From assembly GCF_017052655.1 (NCBI RefSeq), contig NZ_JAFIDC010000001.1, forward strand, positions 1,178,001 to 1,242,000: a stretch of 64,000 bases of DNA, given 5' to 3'. Made by a program: the position numbers and the translations under genes. This DNA is from Acholeplasma equirhinis. Its GTDB lineage: Bacteria > Bacillota_I > Bacilli_A > Acholeplasmatales > Acholeplasmataceae. Position 1 is the first letter of the stretch. Every line of letters begins with the position of its first letter. The notes below the pieces were generated by a model. The model had not been told where the DNA came from. It made no database searches and was given only the letters and a program-made list of their open reading frames with translations. Of the stretch, positions 19,670 through 54,399 are shown piece by piece.

Positions 19670-20130
19670 TTATTCACAAAAATAAAATATCCCACGATGG
19701 CAATAAATGCCCCTAATAAAATACCTGCAAATACTTCTTTAGGTTTGTGTCCTAAAGCTTCTTTTAATTTCTTTTCTTCAACATCAATATTTTCAATTAA
19801 GTTTAAACGTAATTTAATTTGGTTTAATTCGCGTGCATGTTTAGATGCCTCATAACGAATACCCATTGAATCATGTAACACGACTAAAGCAAGTACTAAA
19901 GCAATCGCAAATATTGTGCTTAATTGCCCGTTGTCATGAATTTCAAATAAACCAATAGATGTCGCTAGGGATGTAACTAATGCACTGTGTGAAGATGGCA
20001 TACCACCTGTTGAAAGTAAGATACTTTCATTCACTCTTTTATTTATAATGGCATCAATAAAAAACTTCAATACTTGAGCGATGACCATTGAGGCGATTGA
20101 GATAATAATTACTGCTTCTGGTGTTGACAT
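19666..20130 (-). CDS. DUF212 family membrane protein (acid phosphatase/vanadium-haloperoxidase related)
   Basis: A 154-residue integral membrane protein like Bacillus YuiD. It has the family signature GGMPSSHSALVTSLATSIG (compare the PAP2-type SxxxSGH motif, here MPSSHS), the DSMGIRYEASKHA segment with conserved Arg, and the C-terminal LGHKPKEVFAGILLGAFIAI. About four membrane segments. Suggested role: lipid phosphate hydrolysis, unproven. It starts one base after nifU-like ends. Confidence 0.88.
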   Translation of the reverse strand: MSTPEAVIIISIASMVIAQVLKFFIDAIINKRVNESILLSTGGMPSSHSALVTSLATSIGLFEIHDNGQLSTIFAIALVLALVVLHDSMGIRYEASKHARELNQIKLRLNLIENIDVEEKKLKEALGHKPKEVFAGILLGAFIAIVGYFIFVNK

Positions 20131-20131
20131 G

Positions 20132-20365
20132 TTAGACGGTTACCACGGCAATAATCCCAGGTACATGTTCTAGGATCATTTGCTCTATTCCTTGTTTTAG
20201 TGTAATATCAATTGCTGCACATCCGTCACATGCACCACCCATTTTTACATAGACAATACCTTCCTCGATATTAACGAGTTCAATATCGCCACCATCTCTT
20301 TGGATATATGGGCGAACACGCTTTAGAATAGCATTTACTTGTTCTGTTGTGGCTTCAATACTCAT
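20132..20365 (-). CDS. NifU C-terminal domain iron-sulfur scaffold protein
   Basis: A 77-residue stand-alone NifU-like domain (YutI/Nfu type) that can carry or transfer Fe-S clusters. RVRPYIQRDGGDIELVNIE and the CxxC motif in GGACDGCAAIDITLKQGIE are diagnostic; the two Cys residues would bind the cluster between two monomers. It follows the yutD gene by 32 bases. Its presence implies Fe-S proteins in a mollicute. Confidence 0.93.
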   Translation of the reverse strand: MSIEATTEQVNAILKRVRPYIQRDGGDIELVNIEEGIVYVKMGGACDGCAAIDITLKQGIEQMILEHVPGIIAVVTV

Positions 20366-20397
20366 TCTACAAAACTCCTATCATTTTTCTAAACTTA

Positions 20398-20682
20398 TTA
20401 TACTTTATTTTGCTCCACTTTTACACGTTTTAGCACGAAAAATGGACAATTGTGGTTACAACTTTCATTAATGTAATCTGGAATCTTTTTATAACCATTT
20501 GCACCCTTAGGATCTTGTGAGAATCCTTTCAATCTTAAGATTTCACTTGAAAGATCACCTACTATGTAGGTATATCTATCAAAAGCAACATCTACATACT
20601 TTTCAGTAAACTTTTGTATATCAAAAGCTTCACGATAGTTTTTAATGAGTTCGAATGTACCCACTTCTGTTTCTATAATCAT
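20398..20682 (-). CDS. yutD: YutD family protein (DUF1027)
   Basis: A 94-residue protein of the conserved Firmicute YutD family, function unknown. Recognisable parts are FELIKNYREAFDIQKFTEKY, the core FDRYTYIVGDLSSEILRLKG, and the C-terminal CNHNCPFFVLKR with a Cys pair. AGAGGT precedes the ATG. In Bacillus the gene is also near yutI (NifU-like), so gene order is conserved. Confidence 0.82.
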   Translation of the reverse strand: MIIETEVGTFELIKNYREAFDIQKFTEKYVDVAFDRYTYIVGDLSSEILRLKGFSQDPKGANGYKKIPDYINESCNHNCPFFVLKRVKVEQNKV

Positions 20683-20691
20683 AATAACCTC

Positions 20692-21213
20692 TTATCCTGA
20701 GATGTAATCATTCATTGGAATATCATATGTTTCAGGTTCGAAGTCAACGACTTCATCTTCATAGATTATTCCAATCTTATAAACCTCTAATCTGTTCTTA
20801 AAAAACTTATCAAAATAACCTTTACCATAACCTAAACGATAAAAGTTTTTAGTAATACCTAAACATGGTACTAAAATAACTTCAAGTTTTGCTGTAATAT
20901 CAAATCCAAATTGCGGTTCATATATACCAAAACTTGCATGTTTAAGTTGTGTAAACTGGTCATATTGTAAATACATGACTTTGTCATTAACTGTTTTAGG
21001 TAAAGCAAAGATTTTATCAGGAAAACGAGATATGATTTCCATTAAATCCATTTCTCCATTTGCAGGATAGAATAATCCAACAAAATCAGCTTTAAGGAAA
21101 TGTTCGTCCTCACATAACTTTTCAATCACCTTTGATGCAGCTTCTTTTTTTCTTGCATCAGTTAATGCACTTCTTTTTTCTAATATTTGTTTTCTTAATG
21201 TTTTCTTATCCAT
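20692..21213 (-). CDS. 5-formyltetrahydrofolate cyclo-ligase family protein
   Basis: A 173-residue enzyme that converts 5-formyl-THF to 5,10-methenyl-THF with ATP. It begins MDKKTLRKQILEKRSALTD, contains the phosphate-binding Lys/Arg helix, GLFYPANGEMDLM, EVILVPCLGITKNFYRLGYG and the loop GKGYFDKFF. Complete length. GAGAGGGG precedes the ATG. It lies between the PAS/GGDEF-like gene and yutD in one minus-strand run. Confidence 0.93.
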   Translation of the reverse strand: MDKKTLRKQILEKRSALTDARKKEAASKVIEKLCEDEHFLKADFVGLFYPANGEMDLMEIISRFPDKIFALPKTVNDKVMYLQYDQFTQLKHASFGIYEPQFGFDITAKLEVILVPCLGITKNFYRLGYGKGYFDKFFKNRLEVYKIGIIYEDEVVDFEPETYDIPMNDYISG

Positions 21214-21237
21214 GAGAATCCCCTCTCACTTTAATAA

Positions 21238-22821
21238 TTATTTGATATCTTTAAAGAAACATCCTTGACCCTTATATTGTGGGAGTTGTGCAGTTTTAAG
21301 TGCAAGTGCAGCATTTTGATATAAATCTTGTGCATTGACTGCATCATCATACATTTGTGCAACCCCAATAAATACCTCGAGTTCAGCAGTAATTGAACCA
21401 TATTCCATCGTCATGTTTAAGTAGTTTTCTTGACTTCTTACACCATTGTGTAGGCTTGCCATCTTGCGTGGATCTGTGATTGTAAATGCAAACTCTAATC
21501 CACTTAAACGATAGATATCTGAACTTTCTGTAATAAATGATTGTTTAAGTCTTGTAATATATTGTGCCATTAACATATTACCAACATCTCTGCCATGTTC
21601 ACTATTAATCTTTGGCACATTTTTAAGATTAATGATCGCAAGTTGGAATGGTCTGCCATTTTTGATTAATTGTTTTAAATCCGGTAATAAATAGTTTTCA
21701 TCTTTAATTTGATCAAGAACTGCAATATTAGATTTTCTAAAGTACTGTGCATGAACTGGAGTAATTGTCCCCATGATCACAGACGATTCTCTATCTTCAA
21801 ATAATCGCTTACCTTTTTCTTTAATCCAAATGTATGTATCATCTAGTTTAAATCTGTAAGACGCTGCATAGGTTGGCTTGGATGGTGTAAGATTTGAAAT
21901 CGTATCTAAATACTTTTGAAGATCTTGCGGATGAATCATATCTCTAAAGTCTGTAACTTTAAGTGTATGACTTGGAACATTTAATTGATCAATGATTGTA
22001 TCGTTCATCCATACTGTTTTTTCATCTAAATCAATATAGAATAAACCTTCATCTGATAATTCTAATGTTGCAATAAACTTATGTCGAATAGATTCTAATT
22101 CTTTATCTGTCGCTTTTAATGTCTTTTCTACTTGTAAGAGTTCTTCATCAGTTCGCTTTTCACCAACTGCCATACGACCACGATAACGACCAAGTACGTA
22201 TAATGGTTGCATGTTAAGGTGAAGCATAACAGGTTCACCATTAAAGTTTTGAAGTTCTAACTCCATGATTTCAGAATCATTTGGTTTAACTGTCTTTCTA
22301 TAATCATTAAAATACTTTTCAATTGTTCTGTTGTGTGCAGCTTCACCGTTCATCTTAGTAAAACGCACCTTTGAATTAAAGACACTTAAGAATTTTTTAC
22401 CAACAACTTCATCTTTACTTAAATTGAGTTCACGCAGTAAAGAGAATGAAATATCTTTGATTCTCTCTTTTTGGTCAACAACGTAATATACATTCCATTT
22501 AGTGTTTTTTACACCTTTAATAAAGAGTTGATAATAAGAACCATTAATAATTGCATTTCTAAATGTTTGGTATAAGGCAAGTAAGAAAATTGCATAGTTG
22601 AAATATATATATACAACATAGTATAAAAGTAAATCTTCATTTGTAAGAATTTGGTCTTCATAAAAGAAAATTAACGTTACAAAAAATGCAACATTTATAA
22701 ATGAAAATGTCAGTCTATTTCTTAATACTTTTTCTCTTAAGATGGATTCAGTAATGACAAGCACGACTATAAAAACGGCTGTAATTACCCCAAATATTGG
22801 ATGTTGAGTGTAAGCAATCAT
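21238..22821 (-). CDS. Membrane PAS protein with degenerate GGDEF domain
   Basis: A 527-residue sensor-like protein. Residues 1-90 hold about three membrane helices. Two PAS-like regions follow (about 105-215 and 245-365; FIATLELSDEGLFYIDLDEK and VTDFRDMIHPQDLQKYLDT are the second). Residues about 375-527 look like a GGDEF fold (FQLAIINLKNVPKINSEHG, RDVGNMLMAQYITRLKQSF), but the catalytic loop reads RLSGLEFAF, not GGDEF, so diguanylate cyclase activity is unlikely. The PAS plus degenerate GGDEF order recalls the c-di-AMP phosphodiesterase GdpP, but the DHH-DHHA1 domains are absent. GAAGGA precedes the ATG. It is the second gene after cdaA; a regulatory role in c-di-AMP signalling is inference. 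Confidence 0.75.
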   Translation of the reverse strand: MIAYTQHPIFGVITAVFIVVLVITESILREKVLRNRLTFSFINVAFFVTLIFFYEDQILTNEDLLLYYVVYIYFNYAIFLLALYQTFRNAIINGSYYQLFIKGVKNTKWNVYYVVDQKERIKDISFSLLRELNLSKDEVVGKKFLSVFNSKVRFTKMNGEAAHNRTIEKYFNDYRKTVKPNDSEIMELELQNFNGEPVMLHLNMQPLYVLGRYRGRMAVGEKRTDEELLQVEKTLKATDKELESIRHKFIATLELSDEGLFYIDLDEKTVWMNDTIIDQLNVPSHTLKVTDFRDMIHPQDLQKYLDTISNLTPSKPTYAASYRFKLDDTYIWIKEKGKRLFEDRESSVIMGTITPVHAQYFRKSNIAVLDQIKDENYLLPDLKQLIKNGRPFQLAIINLKNVPKINSEHGRDVGNMLMAQYITRLKQSFITESSDIYRLSGLEFAFTITDPRKMASLHNGVRSQENYLNMTMEYGSITAELEVFIGVAQMYDDAVNAQDLYQNAALALKTAQLPQYKGQGCFFKDIK

Positions 22822-22835
22822 GAAATTTCCTTCGT

Positions 22836-23006
22836 TTAGAATGTAGGATACATATATTTAAAGAATACACCAGCAAGTGCAACTAAAAATGCTAAAACAT
22901 AAACTAACCAACCGTGGCGATCAAAGAAACCAACGATTTTTGCTGATAAATCTCTGGAACCAAAAAATCTAATTGGTTCTAGAAAAAAGTGAAAGAATTT
23001 TTTCAT
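22836..23006 (-). CDS. Small single-pass membrane protein (56 residues) next to cdaA
   Basis: Found by reading the minus strand in the 200-base gap after cdaA. The protein starts MKKFFHFFLEPIRFFGS, has a charged middle (SRDLSAKIVGFFDRHG), and then one membrane helix (WLVYVLAFLVALAGVFF) with a short KYMYPTF tail. AGGAGG sits 8 bases before the ATG at 23006, a very strong ribosome binding site; a second ATG at 23012 is too close to it. It starts 12 bases after the cdaA stop and ends 14 bases before the PAS/GGDEF-like gene. I recognise no family. Its place is where CdaR (YbbR) normally follows CdaA, so it could be a small CdaA partner. Confidence 0.8.
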   Translation of the reverse strand: MKKFFHFFLEPIRFFGSRDLSAKIVGFFDRHGWLVYVLAFLVALAGVFFKYMYPTF

Positions 23007-23018
23007 CGTCATTTCCTC

Positions 23019-23771
23019 CTATCGCATGAAGAGTGATAAATACTCATTAAGCGCATTTTCATCTTTCATTTTAGTCATCACACCATTAATAGCAACCGAG
23101 ATACTACCAGTTTCTTCTGATACAACAACTGTTAAGGCATCCGTAATCTCAGAAATACCAAGTGCTGCTCTATGACGTGAACCAGTTGTTTTTTCAAAGT
23201 TATCATTTGAAGATAGGATGAAGTACGCACCAGCACAGATAAGTTTATCTCCACGTACAATGACTGCACCATCATGCAGTGGTGTATTTGGTGTAAAGAT
23301 GTTTAACAATAATTCATGAGTGACATCTGCATTTAACGTAATCGCGCGTGATGCATATTGATCTAAAGTGTTATGTTTTTCAATTGTTATTAAACCGCCG
23401 ATTCTTTCTTTAGAAAGTTTAGCAGCAGCTTTAATAATTTCATTTTTAGTTCTTTCGGTACCCATAACAAGCATCCCTGTTTTAGTTGTTTCTTTCCACA
23501 TGGATTCCATTGTTAAGCGAATATCCGGTGCTCCAATCACAATTACAAAAATTAATGTGATTAAAGGTAACCCTTCAAAAACTTCTTTCGATAGAGGTAA
23601 ATCAAGTAAACTTGCAACATAGAAAATACCTACAGTAAATAGGTAGAACATAAACATTGATAACATACGTTTACTGTGTAAAACAAATTTTAATACAAAG
23701 ACTGCTAGAATGAAAAAAATATAAAAATCAAGCAGTGTCCACCAAGATAAATTTGCAGCCCAATCAGGCAT
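23019..23771 (-). CDS. cdaA: Diadenylate cyclase CdaA
   Basis: Makes c-di-AMP from two ATP at the membrane. About 250 residues: three N-terminal membrane helices (FYIFFILAVFVLKFVL, MLSMFMFYLFTVGIFYVASL, LPLITLIFVIVIGA), then the DAC domain with both catalytic motifs, DGA in TPLHDGAVIVRGD and RHR in TGSRHRAALGISE. The frame offers ATGs at 23777 and 23771; AGTAGGG is placed better for 23771 (6 bases). No cdaR or glmM follows, unlike in most Firmicutes. The promoter carries a palindrome. Confidence 0.95.
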   Translation of the reverse strand: MPDWAANLSWWTLLDFYIFFILAVFVLKFVLHSKRMLSMFMFYLFTVGIFYVASLLDLPLSKEVFEGLPLITLIFVIVIGAPDIRLTMESMWKETTKTGMLVMGTERTKNEIIKAAAKLSKERIGGLITIEKHNTLDQYASRAITLNADVTHELLLNIFTPNTPLHDGAVIVRGDKLICAGAYFILSSNDNFEKTTGSRHRAALGISEITDALTVVVSEETGSISVAINGVMTKMKDENALNEYLSLFMR

Positions 23772-23805
23772 AATCATCCCTACTTTCGAAATAAAGTTTA
23801 ATTAG

Positions 23806-23825
23806 ATTATATCATATAATGATAT
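23806..23825 (-). promoter_or_regulatory. cdaA promoter with overlapping palindrome
   Basis: The minus strand reads TGATATAAT (-10 at 23806-23811 with TG extension). A perfect inverted repeat, ATATCAT and ATGATAT with a 3-base loop (23809-23825), overlaps it. Could bind a regulator of the cdaA operon. Confidence 0.5.
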
Positions 23826-23852
23826 GTTTGTAAGGTGGTTTCCCCTATTATA

Positions 23853-23861
23853 TGCTATAAT
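23853..23861 (+). promoter_or_regulatory. hxlR-hflX extended -10 promoter
   Basis: TGCTATAAT, 64 bases upstream of the hxlR start; expected transcription start near 23868, before the palindromic operator. Confidence 0.6.
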
Positions 23862-23882
23862 GCTTCTGGTATACAAATCATC

Positions 23883-23905
23883 GTTAGTATCAAATTGTAA
23901 CTAAC
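23883..23905 (+). promoter_or_regulatory. Probable HxlR operator
   Basis: A 23-bp palindrome: arms GTTAGT and ACTAAC, inner CAA and TTG, pairing in 9 of 11 positions around a central base. It lies just downstream of the predicted transcription start and upstream of the ribosome binding site (AGAGGGG) of the HxlR-type gene. Autoregulation is the usual arrangement for this family. Confidence 0.6.
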
Positions 23906-23924
23906 ATAAGAGAGGGGTTATAAC

Positions 23925-24227
23925 ATGGACACTTGTTCAATCGAAAAAGCTTTAAATATGTTTGGTGAAAAATGGAAATTTTTAATCATCCGTGAGCTTT
24001 TAGAAGGTAAAAAAAGATTTTCAGAACTAAAAAGAAATATTGAGGCAATCAGTCAAAAGGTTTTGACTCAAAACTTAAGATCCCTCGAAGCATCAGGACT
24101 GATTTCTAGAACTGTATACCCAGAAATTCCTCCCAGAGTCGAATATGCTTTAACAGATTTAGGCTTTAGTTTAAAACCGATTATGGATGCCATCAGAAGT
24201 TGGGGAGATACATATGCAAAAAATTGA
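23925..24227 (+). CDS. HxlR family winged-helix regulator
   Basis: A 100-residue DUF24/HxlR regulator. The conserved N-terminal Cys is Cys4 in MDTCSIEKALNMFGEKWKF, the winged-helix signature is KWKFLIIRELLEGKKRFSEL and LTQNLRSLEASGLISR, and the wing is VYPEIPPRVEYALTDLG. In relatives such as YodB and HypR this Cys senses quinones, disulfide stress or aldehydes. The gene sits behind its own palindrome and overlaps hflX by 14 bases, so it probably controls itself and hflX. It ends in TGA. Confidence 0.93.
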   Translation: MDTCSIEKALNMFGEKWKFLIIRELLEGKKRFSELKRNIEAISQKVLTQNLRSLEASGLISRTVYPEIPPRVEYALTDLGFSLKPIMDAIRSWGDTYAKN

Positions 24228-25470
24228 TCGTGCATTATTAATCGCAGCAAATTATAAAACAACACTCGAAGTAACAGAAAACTCTATATTAGAACTTGAA
24301 GAACTAGCAAAGGCTTGTAATATACAGCCAGTTGATAAGGTAATTCAAGCAATTGAACAAATTGATCCAAGATACTATATTGGCAGTGGAAAAGTTCAAG
24401 AAGTTAAAAAGATGATTGATATTCTAAATATCGATATCGTAATCTTTGATGACACACTTTCACCTGGTCAACTTAGAAACTTAGAAAAGATTTTAGAAGT
24501 ACAAATTATTGACCGTTCATTTCTAATTTTACAAATATTTGCAGAACGTGCTAAAACGAGACAAGCCATGCTAGAAGTTGCACTTGCACAAAAGCTTTAT
24601 ATGTTACCAAGATTAGTCGGTATGGGTAATTCACTTTCACGTCAAGGTGGTGGATCATTCAATGCGAAAGGTCCTGGTGAAACAAAATTAGAGATGGATC
24701 GCAGAAGACTTCAAATTGAAATCTCAAACCTTAAAAGAGAGATTGAAAAGATTCAACAAACAAGAACAATCAGTCGTCAAAAAAGGCTTGATAACGCAAT
24801 TCCAATCGTCGCACTTGTTGGTTATACAAATGCTGGCAAATCATCTTTAATGAATTACTTTGCAGATAAGTTTGGAACGGATAGAACTGAAGTTTTTGAA
24901 AAAGACATGCTATTTGCAACACTTGATACAAAATCAAAAAGAATTAAAAAAGATAACCAGCCACCCTTCATCTTGATTGATACCGTTGGGTTTATTTCAA
25001 AACTTCCACCTGAACTAATTTCATCATTTGAATCAACCTTATCAGATATTCAAGATGCTAATCTAATCTTACATGTTGTTGATGGACTTAATCCTTCTAT
25101 TCAACAATTAGAATTAACTAAATCCATTCTTAAACAATTAGGTATGGAAACAACACCAAGATTACTTGTTGTAACTAAAAAGGATATGAGATTTTCAGCC
25201 CCTCACATTATGGAAGATTATTTCTATATTTCAAGTAAAACTGGTGAAGGACTAGATGAACTTTATCAAGCAATCCAATCACATCTTTATGAAGAAAGTA
25301 GAATTGTTCATTTGCTTATTCCATTTGATGAAGGTGCACTTTATCAAAGATTAAAAACAGAAACAACCGTCATTGAAACTAAATATATTGATGAAGGTAC
25401 TTATGTTAAAGCTGTCTTAACACCTAAATTAGCAGCTCAACTTAAAAAGTATGTTGTTCAAAAGTCATAA
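24214..25470 (+). CDS. hflX: Ribosome-associated GTPase HflX
   Basis: A 418-residue GTPase that splits or rescues stalled 70S ribosomes under stress. N-terminal HflX domain (DKVIQAIEQIDPRYYIGSGK, and RQGGGSFNAKGPGETKLEMD), then a G domain with GYTNAGKSS (G1), DTVGFISKLP (G3) and TKKD (G4). The frame opens at 24187, but GGGGAGA 5 bases before the ATG at 24214 and the family start (MQKIDRALLIAANY) set the start there, inside the last codons of hxlR. Co-transcribed with the redox regulator, which suggests stress induction. Confidence 0.95.
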   Translation: MQKIDRALLIAANYKTTLEVTENSILELEELAKACNIQPVDKVIQAIEQIDPRYYIGSGKVQEVKKMIDILNIDIVIFDDTLSPGQLRNLEKILEVQIIDRSFLILQIFAERAKTRQAMLEVALAQKLYMLPRLVGMGNSLSRQGGGSFNAKGPGETKLEMDRRRLQIEISNLKREIEKIQQTRTISRQKRLDNAIPIVALVGYTNAGKSSLMNYFADKFGTDRTEVFEKDMLFATLDTKSKRIKKDNQPPFILIDTVGFISKLPPELISSFESTLSDIQDANLILHVVDGLNPSIQQLELTKSILKQLGMETTPRLLVVTKKDMRFSAPHIMEDYFYISSKTGEGLDELYQAIQSHLYEESRIVHLLIPFDEGALYQRLKTETTVIETKYIDEGTYVKAVLTPKLAAQLKKYVVQKS

Positions 25471-52523: not shown

Positions 52524-53465
52524 TTATAAGACTTTATGTACCGCTTCGATGAATTGATCAAGTTCATCTAAACTTGAGAGTGTAGCACCACTTGCTTTTG
52601 CATGTCCACCACCTCTAAATTGATTAGCAACTTTATCAATGTCAGGTCCATTTGAACGAAGTCTTACACGGATTTCACCTTTATCTTCAATAAAGATTGC
52701 CCAAACGGGGAAGCCCTCGATACCGCCTAACATATTAACAACCGAACTCGCTTCTTCATAAGAAAGCTTAAATTCTTCGCGGATTTTGTCTGTGATAATT
52801 AAATAAATAAAACCTTTGTCTGTTGTTTTAAAGTTTTGATATACAAAACCTTTGAAACGAATCATGTCTAATGATTCAATTGAAAGTTGTTTATCGATTT
52901 CTTCAACATCTGCACCATGATTTAATAACATACCTGCCATTTGGTGTGTAAGTTCTGATACACCACGATATTTAAATCTACCTGTATCTGTAAGAATACC
53001 TGTATACATTGCAACCGCACCAGGTTTAGTTATTTTCAATTTCTTAAACTTAGTTGAAAAATATGCAATCATTTGAGCACATGATGGGAAAGAAGTATCA
53101 ACCCATTGATAGTCTCCATATTGATCAATTGGAATATGGTGATCAATTTTAATAACTTCTAGACCTAATGTATATTTGGGATTCGAAACACGATCTGCTG
53201 TTGCAGTATCAACGACAATTGAAAGTGCATCACTATAGAAACTATCTGGTAAATCACTTGGTACAACAATATCTGGCATACCTACAAATTGCATCGCTTC
53301 GCTAAGTTGGCTTGTTACATAAACTTCTTTCTCAGGAAATGCATTTTGAATTAAGTTCTTTAAACCGAATTGTGCACCATAACAATCACCATCTGGTCTA
53401 ATATGACCATAGATAATGATTTTTGGATATTTTTTAATCTTATTATAAATTGTTTTGAGTATCAT
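52524..53465 (-). CDS. DHH-DHHA1 phosphoesterase (NrnA/PdeM-like), second copy
   Basis: A 313-residue DHH-family enzyme: HIRPDGDCYGAQ (DGD motif I), IDHHIP (motif III), ILTDTGRFKY, and the DHHA1 end GGGHAKASGA. Relatives cleave pAp and nano-RNA, or pApA and c-di-AMP. The frame opens at 53483, but AAAGGG 8 bases before the ATG at 53465 sets the start. It overlaps the first copy by 23 bases. Its activity on c-di-AMP made by CdaA is possible but not shown. Confidence 0.88.
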   Translation of the reverse strand: MILKTIYNKIKKYPKIIIYGHIRPDGDCYGAQFGLKNLIQNAFPEKEVYVTSQLSEAMQFVGMPDIVVPSDLPDSFYSDALSIVVDTATADRVSNPKYTLGLEVIKIDHHIPIDQYGDYQWVDTSFPSCAQMIAYFSTKFKKLKITKPGAVAMYTGILTDTGRFKYRGVSELTHQMAGMLLNHGADVEEIDKQLSIESLDMIRFKGFVYQNFKTTDKGFIYLIITDKIREEFKLSYEEASSVVNMLGGIEGFPVWAIFIEDKGEIRVRLRSNGPDIDKVANQFRGGGHAKASGATLSSLDELDQFIEAVHKVL

Positions 53466-54399
53466 ATAGCTTTGCCCTTTCATCTAAATCTTTGATCATT
53501 AATAATGCCTCATCAAAGCTTTGTAGTGTTGCACCACATGCATTTGCATGTCCACCACCACCATATTTTTTAGCAATATCAACAATTGAGATATTTCTAC
53601 TTCTTAATTCGGCAATAATCTCACCTTTTTCATTCTCAGTGAAGTTTGCCCATATTGGTACTTCTTTAATACCTGCCATACCATTTACCATGCCACGCGA
53701 AACTGAGAAGAAATCAAGTCCCGATTTTTCAATTAATGCTTGGTCATTAAAACGATAAGCAACATTATTTTCAGATAATTGGAAATCACTGAATAAAACT
53801 CTGCCTTTTCTTTTAACAAGTGGCTCAATGTAAAGATAATCATAAATTTCTTTGATATCTATGCCATAACTCATTAAAACAGATGAAATATAAAAGACGT
53901 GTTCTCCATTATCTTTATTGATATAGTTGAAACGTCCTGAATCACCAATAATACCAGCAAGCATATGGCCTGCTGCTTCTTTATCAAATTTAAATCCCCA
54001 TTTTAATCCTAAGTCTGCAATGATTTCACTACATGAAATCCATTTTTCATTTTTATAAAAAATCGCAGGATTCAAATTGGTGTCATTCAAATGATGATCA
54101 ATAACGATTAATTCTTTAGCTAACTTATAACGGTCATCGCTTACAAGTTTAGCCTCTGCTGTGTCTAATACAAATGCAAGTGCACCTTCATATAGATCAT
54201 CACTGATTTCATCCATTGTGTGATCAAAAGGATAGTTTTGATCATCACCAACAACATAAATTTGTTTTTCAGGGAAATTTAATTTAAGTAAAGATCTAAA
54301 CCCTAATTGTGAGCCATAAGCATCTAAATCTGGTCTAGTGTGTCGGTGAATAATAATTGTTTGATAAGACTTAATTTTTTCTAATATTTGTTTTTCCAT
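53443..54399 (-). CDS. DHH-DHHA1 phosphoesterase (NrnA/PdeM-like), first copy
   Basis: A 318-residue paralogue of the next gene. Motif I reads RPDLDAYGSQLGF, where the usual DGD middle Gly is Leu (DLD); both Asp metal ligands remain. Motif III IDHHL, IIGDSGRFNY and the DHHA1 GGGHANACGA are intact. Tandem duplication followed by divergence is likely, so the two may have split substrates (for example pAp/nano-RNA and c-di-AMP/pApA). Confidence 0.88.
   Translation of the reverse strand: MEKQILEKIKSYQTIIIHRHTRPDLDAYGSQLGFRSLLKLNFPEKQIYVVGDDQNYPFDHTMDEISDDLYEGALAFVLDTAEAKLVSDDRYKLAKELIVIDHHLNDTNLNPAIFYKNEKWISCSEIIADLGLKWGFKFDKEAAGHMLAGIIGDSGRFNYINKDNGEHVFYISSVLMSYGIDIKEIYDYLYIEPLVKRKGRVLFSDFQLSENNVAYRFNDQALIEKSGLDFFSVSRGMVNGMAGIKEVPIWANFTENEKGEIIAELRSRNISIVDIAKKYGGGGHANACGATLQSFDEALLMIKDLDERAKLYDTQNNL

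Follow-up and report, generated by a model that had tools for sequence, protein, structure and literature searches.

A cdaA gene cluster of Acholeplasma equirhinis and its order with a short, probably CdaR-derived membrane protein and a PAS/pseudo-GGDEF protein

The DNA analysed here, referred to as the window, is a stretch of 64,000 nucleotides from the 1.45 Mb genome of Acholeplasma equirhinis. Its minus strand possesses three genes head to tail, all present where the preliminary description had put them: cdaA (23019..23777), a small ORF (22836..23006) and a gene for a PAS/pseudo-GGDEF protein (21238..22821). The intergenic gaps are 12 nt between cdaA and the small ORF and 14 nt between the small ORF and the third gene. 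The next gene in the same direction (20692..21213, minus strand) encodes a 5-formyltetrahydrofolate cyclo-ligase (PF01812, 104 bits); a similar gene is also found behind the PAS/GGDEF gene in other families, and we treat it as linked context outside the signalling unit. Divergent from cdaA, on the plus strand, are the genes of an HxlR-like regulator (23925-24227) and an HflX-like GTPase (24187-25470). A promoter-like site upstream of cdaA (CTTACA-17-TATAAT with an extended TG, 23806..23834, minus strand) matches the consensus in 10 of 12 positions and is a weak candidate, since such sites are no commoner in this region than in shuffled DNA. An Rfam scan of positions 20000-25000 gave no match.

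The cdaA product is a membrane diadenylate cyclase of 252 aa with the DGA and RHR motifs intact, as described before, with a DAC domain (PF02457) of 133 bits and with a sequence that aligns to solved CdaA chains. It reaches 181.9 bits against the NCBI equivalog TIGR00159 (cut-off 188.8), the next best model being CdaS with 134.2 bits, and it is 72-74% identical to the CdaAs of Acholeplasma oculi, A. equifetale and A. laidlawii. CdaM of Mycoplasma pneumoniae (PMC5508000) is likewise a diadenylate cyclase of mycoplasma-related bacteria, but the window enzyme is of the CdaA type; its membrane region is longer, and its gene is linked to two others. CdaA was found in 139 of the 160 genomes of the order. 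The phytoplasma-like genus g11 (genomes of 0.3-0.9 Mb, read here as phytoplasmas) keeps cdaA without the small ORF and without the PAS/GGDEF gene, so CdaA does not depend strictly on its two partners. Elsewhere in the class, family f22 contains CdaAs with C-terminal extensions (e.g. L137-L139 and L154-L158), in open frames of up to about 550 aa; the f22 genomes with an extended CdaA have a normal CdaR and GlmM.

The small ORF has two possible starts. The first in-frame ATG (23012) would give 58 aa and the second (23006) 56 aa; the latter lies 12 nt past the cdaA stop and 8 nt past a perfect AGGAGG, and it aligns with the starts of relatives, for which reasons the length of 56 aa given previously is the right one. 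From the order we extracted 83 loci, the window's own included, each with both cdaA and the PAS/GGDEF gene. A single-TM ORF of 49-74 aa stands between these two genes in every one of them, starting 0-17 nt after cdaA in 81 and preceded by an SD-like site in 79. Frame and start are intact in all 83. Within the genus, the differences are 0.37, 0.14 and 0.50 for codon positions 1, 2 and 3, respectively. The small proteins of families f1, f2 and f4 form one family (hhalign probability 96-98), and an aligned sample of 41 small proteins shows an invariant Pro11 and a nearly invariant Tyr51. The best match of the small-protein profile lies beside cdaA in all 44 sampled cdaA-bearing genomes of the order outside g11. 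No Pfam family matches the small ORF, and in NCBIfam just one model responds, far below its cut-off. In family f3 (genome G143, loci L080 and L081) cdaA and the small ORF occur together and the PAS/GGDEF gene is found on another contig, which ties the small ORF to cdaA. That cdaA and the small ORF might be joined by readthrough was considered and rejected: they share a reading frame in the window, but many relatives have a gap whose length is not divisible by three. The small ORF is thus a real gene that occurs order-wide, and the short one-helix frame and the gene order, on whose conservation the preliminary description had made its proposal depend, are kept.

The usual Firmicute order is cdaA-cdaR-glmM. 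In the window cluster glmM is not next, and the PAS/GGDEF gene is there instead; a GlmM-like protein is encoded unlinked at C1:114670 (396 bits, below the cut-off of 447.55). The YbbR domain (PF07949) was detected in none of the 160 genomes of the order, with Bacillus subtilis as a positive control. It does occur elsewhere in the class, in families f6, f10, f13, f14, f15, f17, f20 and f22, and in the examined loci of YbbR-bearing families the YbbR gene downstream of cdaA is cdaR, and glmM often comes next. The cassette is therefore conserved in place of cdaA-cdaR-glmM, and CdaR in its full form is truly absent, as had been supposed. Loss of the cell wall was rejected as a simple cause of YbbR loss, because several YbbR-less f2 genomes and all eight f12 genomes encode penicillin-binding transpeptidases.

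The third gene encodes a protein of 527 aa with a GGDEF match (PF00990, 40 bits) and weak general PAS matches, and it has counterparts in 122 of the 160 genomes of the order. Its AlphaFold model (mean pLDDT 87.9, pTM 0.41) predicts three N-terminal membrane helices (8-29, 34-58 and 62-106), two PAS-like folds (about 111-223 and 259-355) and a GGDEF-like fold (about 367-526), in agreement with the earlier domain assignment. Foldseek returned PAS and PAS-GGDEF proteins, none of them close over the full length. The catalytic loop reads SGLEF, as already noted, in place of GG[DE]EF, and the intact motif is found in none of 54 aligned sequences. The features of an active diguanylate cyclase, i.e. 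the GG[DE]EF signature and the metal-binding Asp, are missing from the window protein. N406, G414, R438, G441 and F444 are invariant among the same 54 sequences; since these residues persist while the signature is never intact, the GGDEF domain is, judged from the alignment, a conserved dead enzyme.

Like GdpP, the protein is a membrane protein that combines PAS with a degenerate GGDEF, but it has two PAS regions, a GGDEF of the PF00990 kind rather than GdpP's PF24898, and no DHH/DHHA1. The suggestion that it is a GdpP without its DHH half does not hold, for the genome possesses an intact GdpP elsewhere. This is a protein of 832 aa with PAS_GdpP, GGDEF_GdpP, DHH and DHHA1 fused to ribosomal protein L9 (L125:3185-5683, minus strand; G000:C1, about 1075-1078 kb), and at 1150 bits it is above the NF011110 cut-off. 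Its gene adjoins a replicative-helicase-like gene. The two free DHH/DHHA1 proteins of the window (52524-53483 and 53443-54399, minus strand) had been put forward as the c-di-AMP phosphodiesterase. They are tandem paralogues, their ORFs overlapping by 41 bases, and score best against NrnA, below its cut-off; given the GdpP-L9 fusion, this pair was rejected as the main phosphodiesterase, and a side activity on c-di-AMP is possible.

Relatives of the PAS/pseudo-GGDEF protein are linked to cdaA in families f7, f9, f16 and f19 as well, next to it or with a methylglyoxal-synthase-like or large oxidoreductase-like gene intervening; the one f24 locus of sufficient length shows the linkage too. These five families are without CdaR, save for doubtful YbbR matches in a single genome each of f9 and f19. 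The GGDEF motif is degenerate in their proteins too, and f9 members appear to be without a GGDEF domain. The methylglyoxal-synthase-like gene is located near or directly behind cdaA, before the PAS/GGDEF-like gene, in f7 and f19 (L135, L136, L140, L210 and L218).

The PAS/pseudo-GGDEF protein might act in a c-di-GMP or another pathway and merely be carried in the cdaA operon. A folate-metabolism enzyme shares the cluster, and c-di-GMP may exist in these bacteria, as a GGDEF enzyme with an intact motif (ARFGGDEF; PF00990, 137 bits) is encoded elsewhere. Against this, several CdaR-less families keep the gene linked to cdaA with differing intervening genes, and no I-site-like RxxD was seen before SGLEF; we consider such a role unlikely, though it is the most serious of the alternatives. 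The intact enzyme is a membrane protein (L126:1119-2321, plus strand), and through it an Acholeplasma may make c-di-GMP.

The small protein shares with CdaR the slot directly after cdaA, and both have a cytoplasmic Pro-containing segment followed by one TM with the N-terminus inside, the part over which a remote homology extends; the small protein differs in the absence of YbbR repeats, in its length (49-74 aa versus several hundred) and in having no glmM behind. For comparison we used the first 115 residues of CdaRs from YbbR-bearing families, among them 37 sequences of f14. In hhalign the small family matches the f14 CdaR N-termini with probability 91 and a score of 37.5, whereas decoys for the same query (reversed profiles and TM parts of neighbouring proteins) stay at or below 19.3. 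Among 150 profiles whose columns were shuffled within the TM and, independently, within the flanks, the maximum was 28.6, so that none reached 37.5. The f14 result is the best of several CdaR families tried, those of f22, f17 and f10 being at or near decoy level, and taken alone it is suggestive. The stronger evidence comes from a blind search of 395 genomes of the class with the small-protein profile, which gave weak matches outside the order that include the CdaR N-termini of three f15 genomes (E about 0.012, within 0.004-0.013; near full model length); in a local ranking these are ranks 1-3 of 3157 reading frames. Family f15 has the normal cdaA-cdaR-glmM order. The invariant Pro precedes the TM by 23-24 residues in those small proteins that were inspected and by about 25-28 in f14 and f15 CdaRs, where the Pro is present in 37 of 37 f14 and 6 of 6 f15 sequences, and the charge layout of small proteins and f14/f15 CdaRs is alike, with positive charges inside. 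A structure search with an f15 CdaR found YbbR-domain entries only and no solved CdaR membrane segment. Because the blind search, the f14 profile match and the Pro and charge layout point the same way, the small protein may be seen as a CdaR reduced to its membrane module. It is probably not unrelated to CdaR, and its descent from the CdaR N-terminus is well supported, although the homology is remote and TM segments invite false similarity. The earlier idea that it may replace CdaR thus stands as to its place and is refined as to its origin: rather than an unrelated substitute, it is most likely the N-terminal membrane module of CdaR without YbbR.

It would be otherwise if an unrelated protein had been recruited independently as a partner of CdaA, and the likeness to CdaR were a convergence of short amphipathic-plus-TM proteins. 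The remoteness of the scores, the failure of the f22, f17 and f10 N-termini to rise clearly above decoys and the position of the order, which is not inside a CdaR-bearing clade of the CdaA tree, would fit. The blind genome-wide search nevertheless picked out CdaR N-termini, no shuffle that keeps the hydrophobic layout reaches the observed score, and the genomic slot is the same with a similar Pro-to-TM spacing, which leaves convergence with perhaps a minor share of the probability. We give still less weight to a small protein that serves the PAS/pseudo-GGDEF protein, as an aid to membrane assembly or a signalling subunit, and not CdaA. Its gene does directly precede the PAS/GGDEF gene in all 83 loci, and phytoplasma-like genomes have lost the one along with the other; but in f3 it remains beside cdaA with the PAS/GGDEF gene elsewhere, the cdaA-linked PAS/GGDEF genes of f7, f9, f16 and f19 have no small ORF, and the comparable ORF of family f12 has no PAS/GGDEF neighbour. 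That the small ORF is a functionless, decaying remnant of CdaR is very improbable, for although it is without YbbR, the sole named domain of CdaR, codon position 2 varies little, SD-like sites, frame and start are maintained, and one residue is invariant and another nearly so.

Descent of the small protein from CdaR has a parallel in family f12, where a membrane ORF of 75-80 aa is located between cdaA and glmM in eight of eight genomes, all without YbbR. Its profile matches CdaR N-termini (probability 88). It is like the small ORF of the window in its CdaR slot, its shortness, its CdaR-like TM end and its YbbR-less genome, but differs in its length, an extra hydrophobic N-terminal segment, the adjoining glmM and the lack of a PAS/GGDEF gene. 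According to a tree of 104 CdaAs (LG+G4), whose root is not resolved, f12 groups, with support 89, among families that have CdaR and apart from the Acholeplasma order, and on this ground YbbR has probably been lost more than once.

In other Firmicutes, two-hybrid data indicate that CdaR contacts the membrane region of CdaA and GlmM the cyclase domain (PMC6368335), and how CdaR controls CdaA is stated as unclear (PMC8573169). We favour, with some reserve, a small protein that is a mini-CdaR acting on CdaA, with the PAS/pseudo-GGDEF protein as signal input. Such a mini-CdaR would keep the cytoplasmic amphipathic Pro segment and the single TM helix, i.e. the part thought to touch the CdaA membrane domain, but no longer the YbbR repeats outside the cell. 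Probably it packs on the membrane helices of CdaA and tunes the pairing of the cyclase domains. The neighbouring protein would most likely be the signal input: its PAS domains would respond to a ligand, to redox state or to the condition of the membrane, and its dead GGDEF domain would work by binding or relay to turn c-di-AMP synthesis up or down. On the simplest reading, the mini-CdaR would retain the membrane contact, and the sensing task of the extracellular YbbR repeats would have passed to the neighbour's PAS domains. The contact of the mini-CdaR with CdaA, the role of the PAS protein, the direction of control and the effect on c-di-AMP are all inferred. Covariation between CdaA and the small protein is above a within-family shuffle and is not concentrated in the membrane region, phylogeny not being removed from this signal. 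Our literature search, with subscription journals poorly covered, yielded no expression or interaction data for these bacteria; neither partners of c-di-AMP in Acholeplasma nor a CdaR lacking YbbR came up in it, and the single paper naming both c-di-AMP and Acholeplasma deals with RNAs.

The conserved cassette suggests that these bacteria control c-di-AMP with a different partner set. Tentatively, a whole order, with a parallel in another family, may have replaced control by CdaR and GlmM with a YbbR-less mini-CdaR and a membrane PAS/pseudo-GGDEF sensor. If this is true, the membrane anchor would be the minimal regulatory part of CdaR and the YbbR repeats a removable sensor. A natural CdaR of about 56 residues would then be a minimal system for asking if regulation of the cyclase needs no more than the membrane anchor, and the PAS/pseudo-GGDEF protein a candidate signal input to c-di-AMP synthesis.
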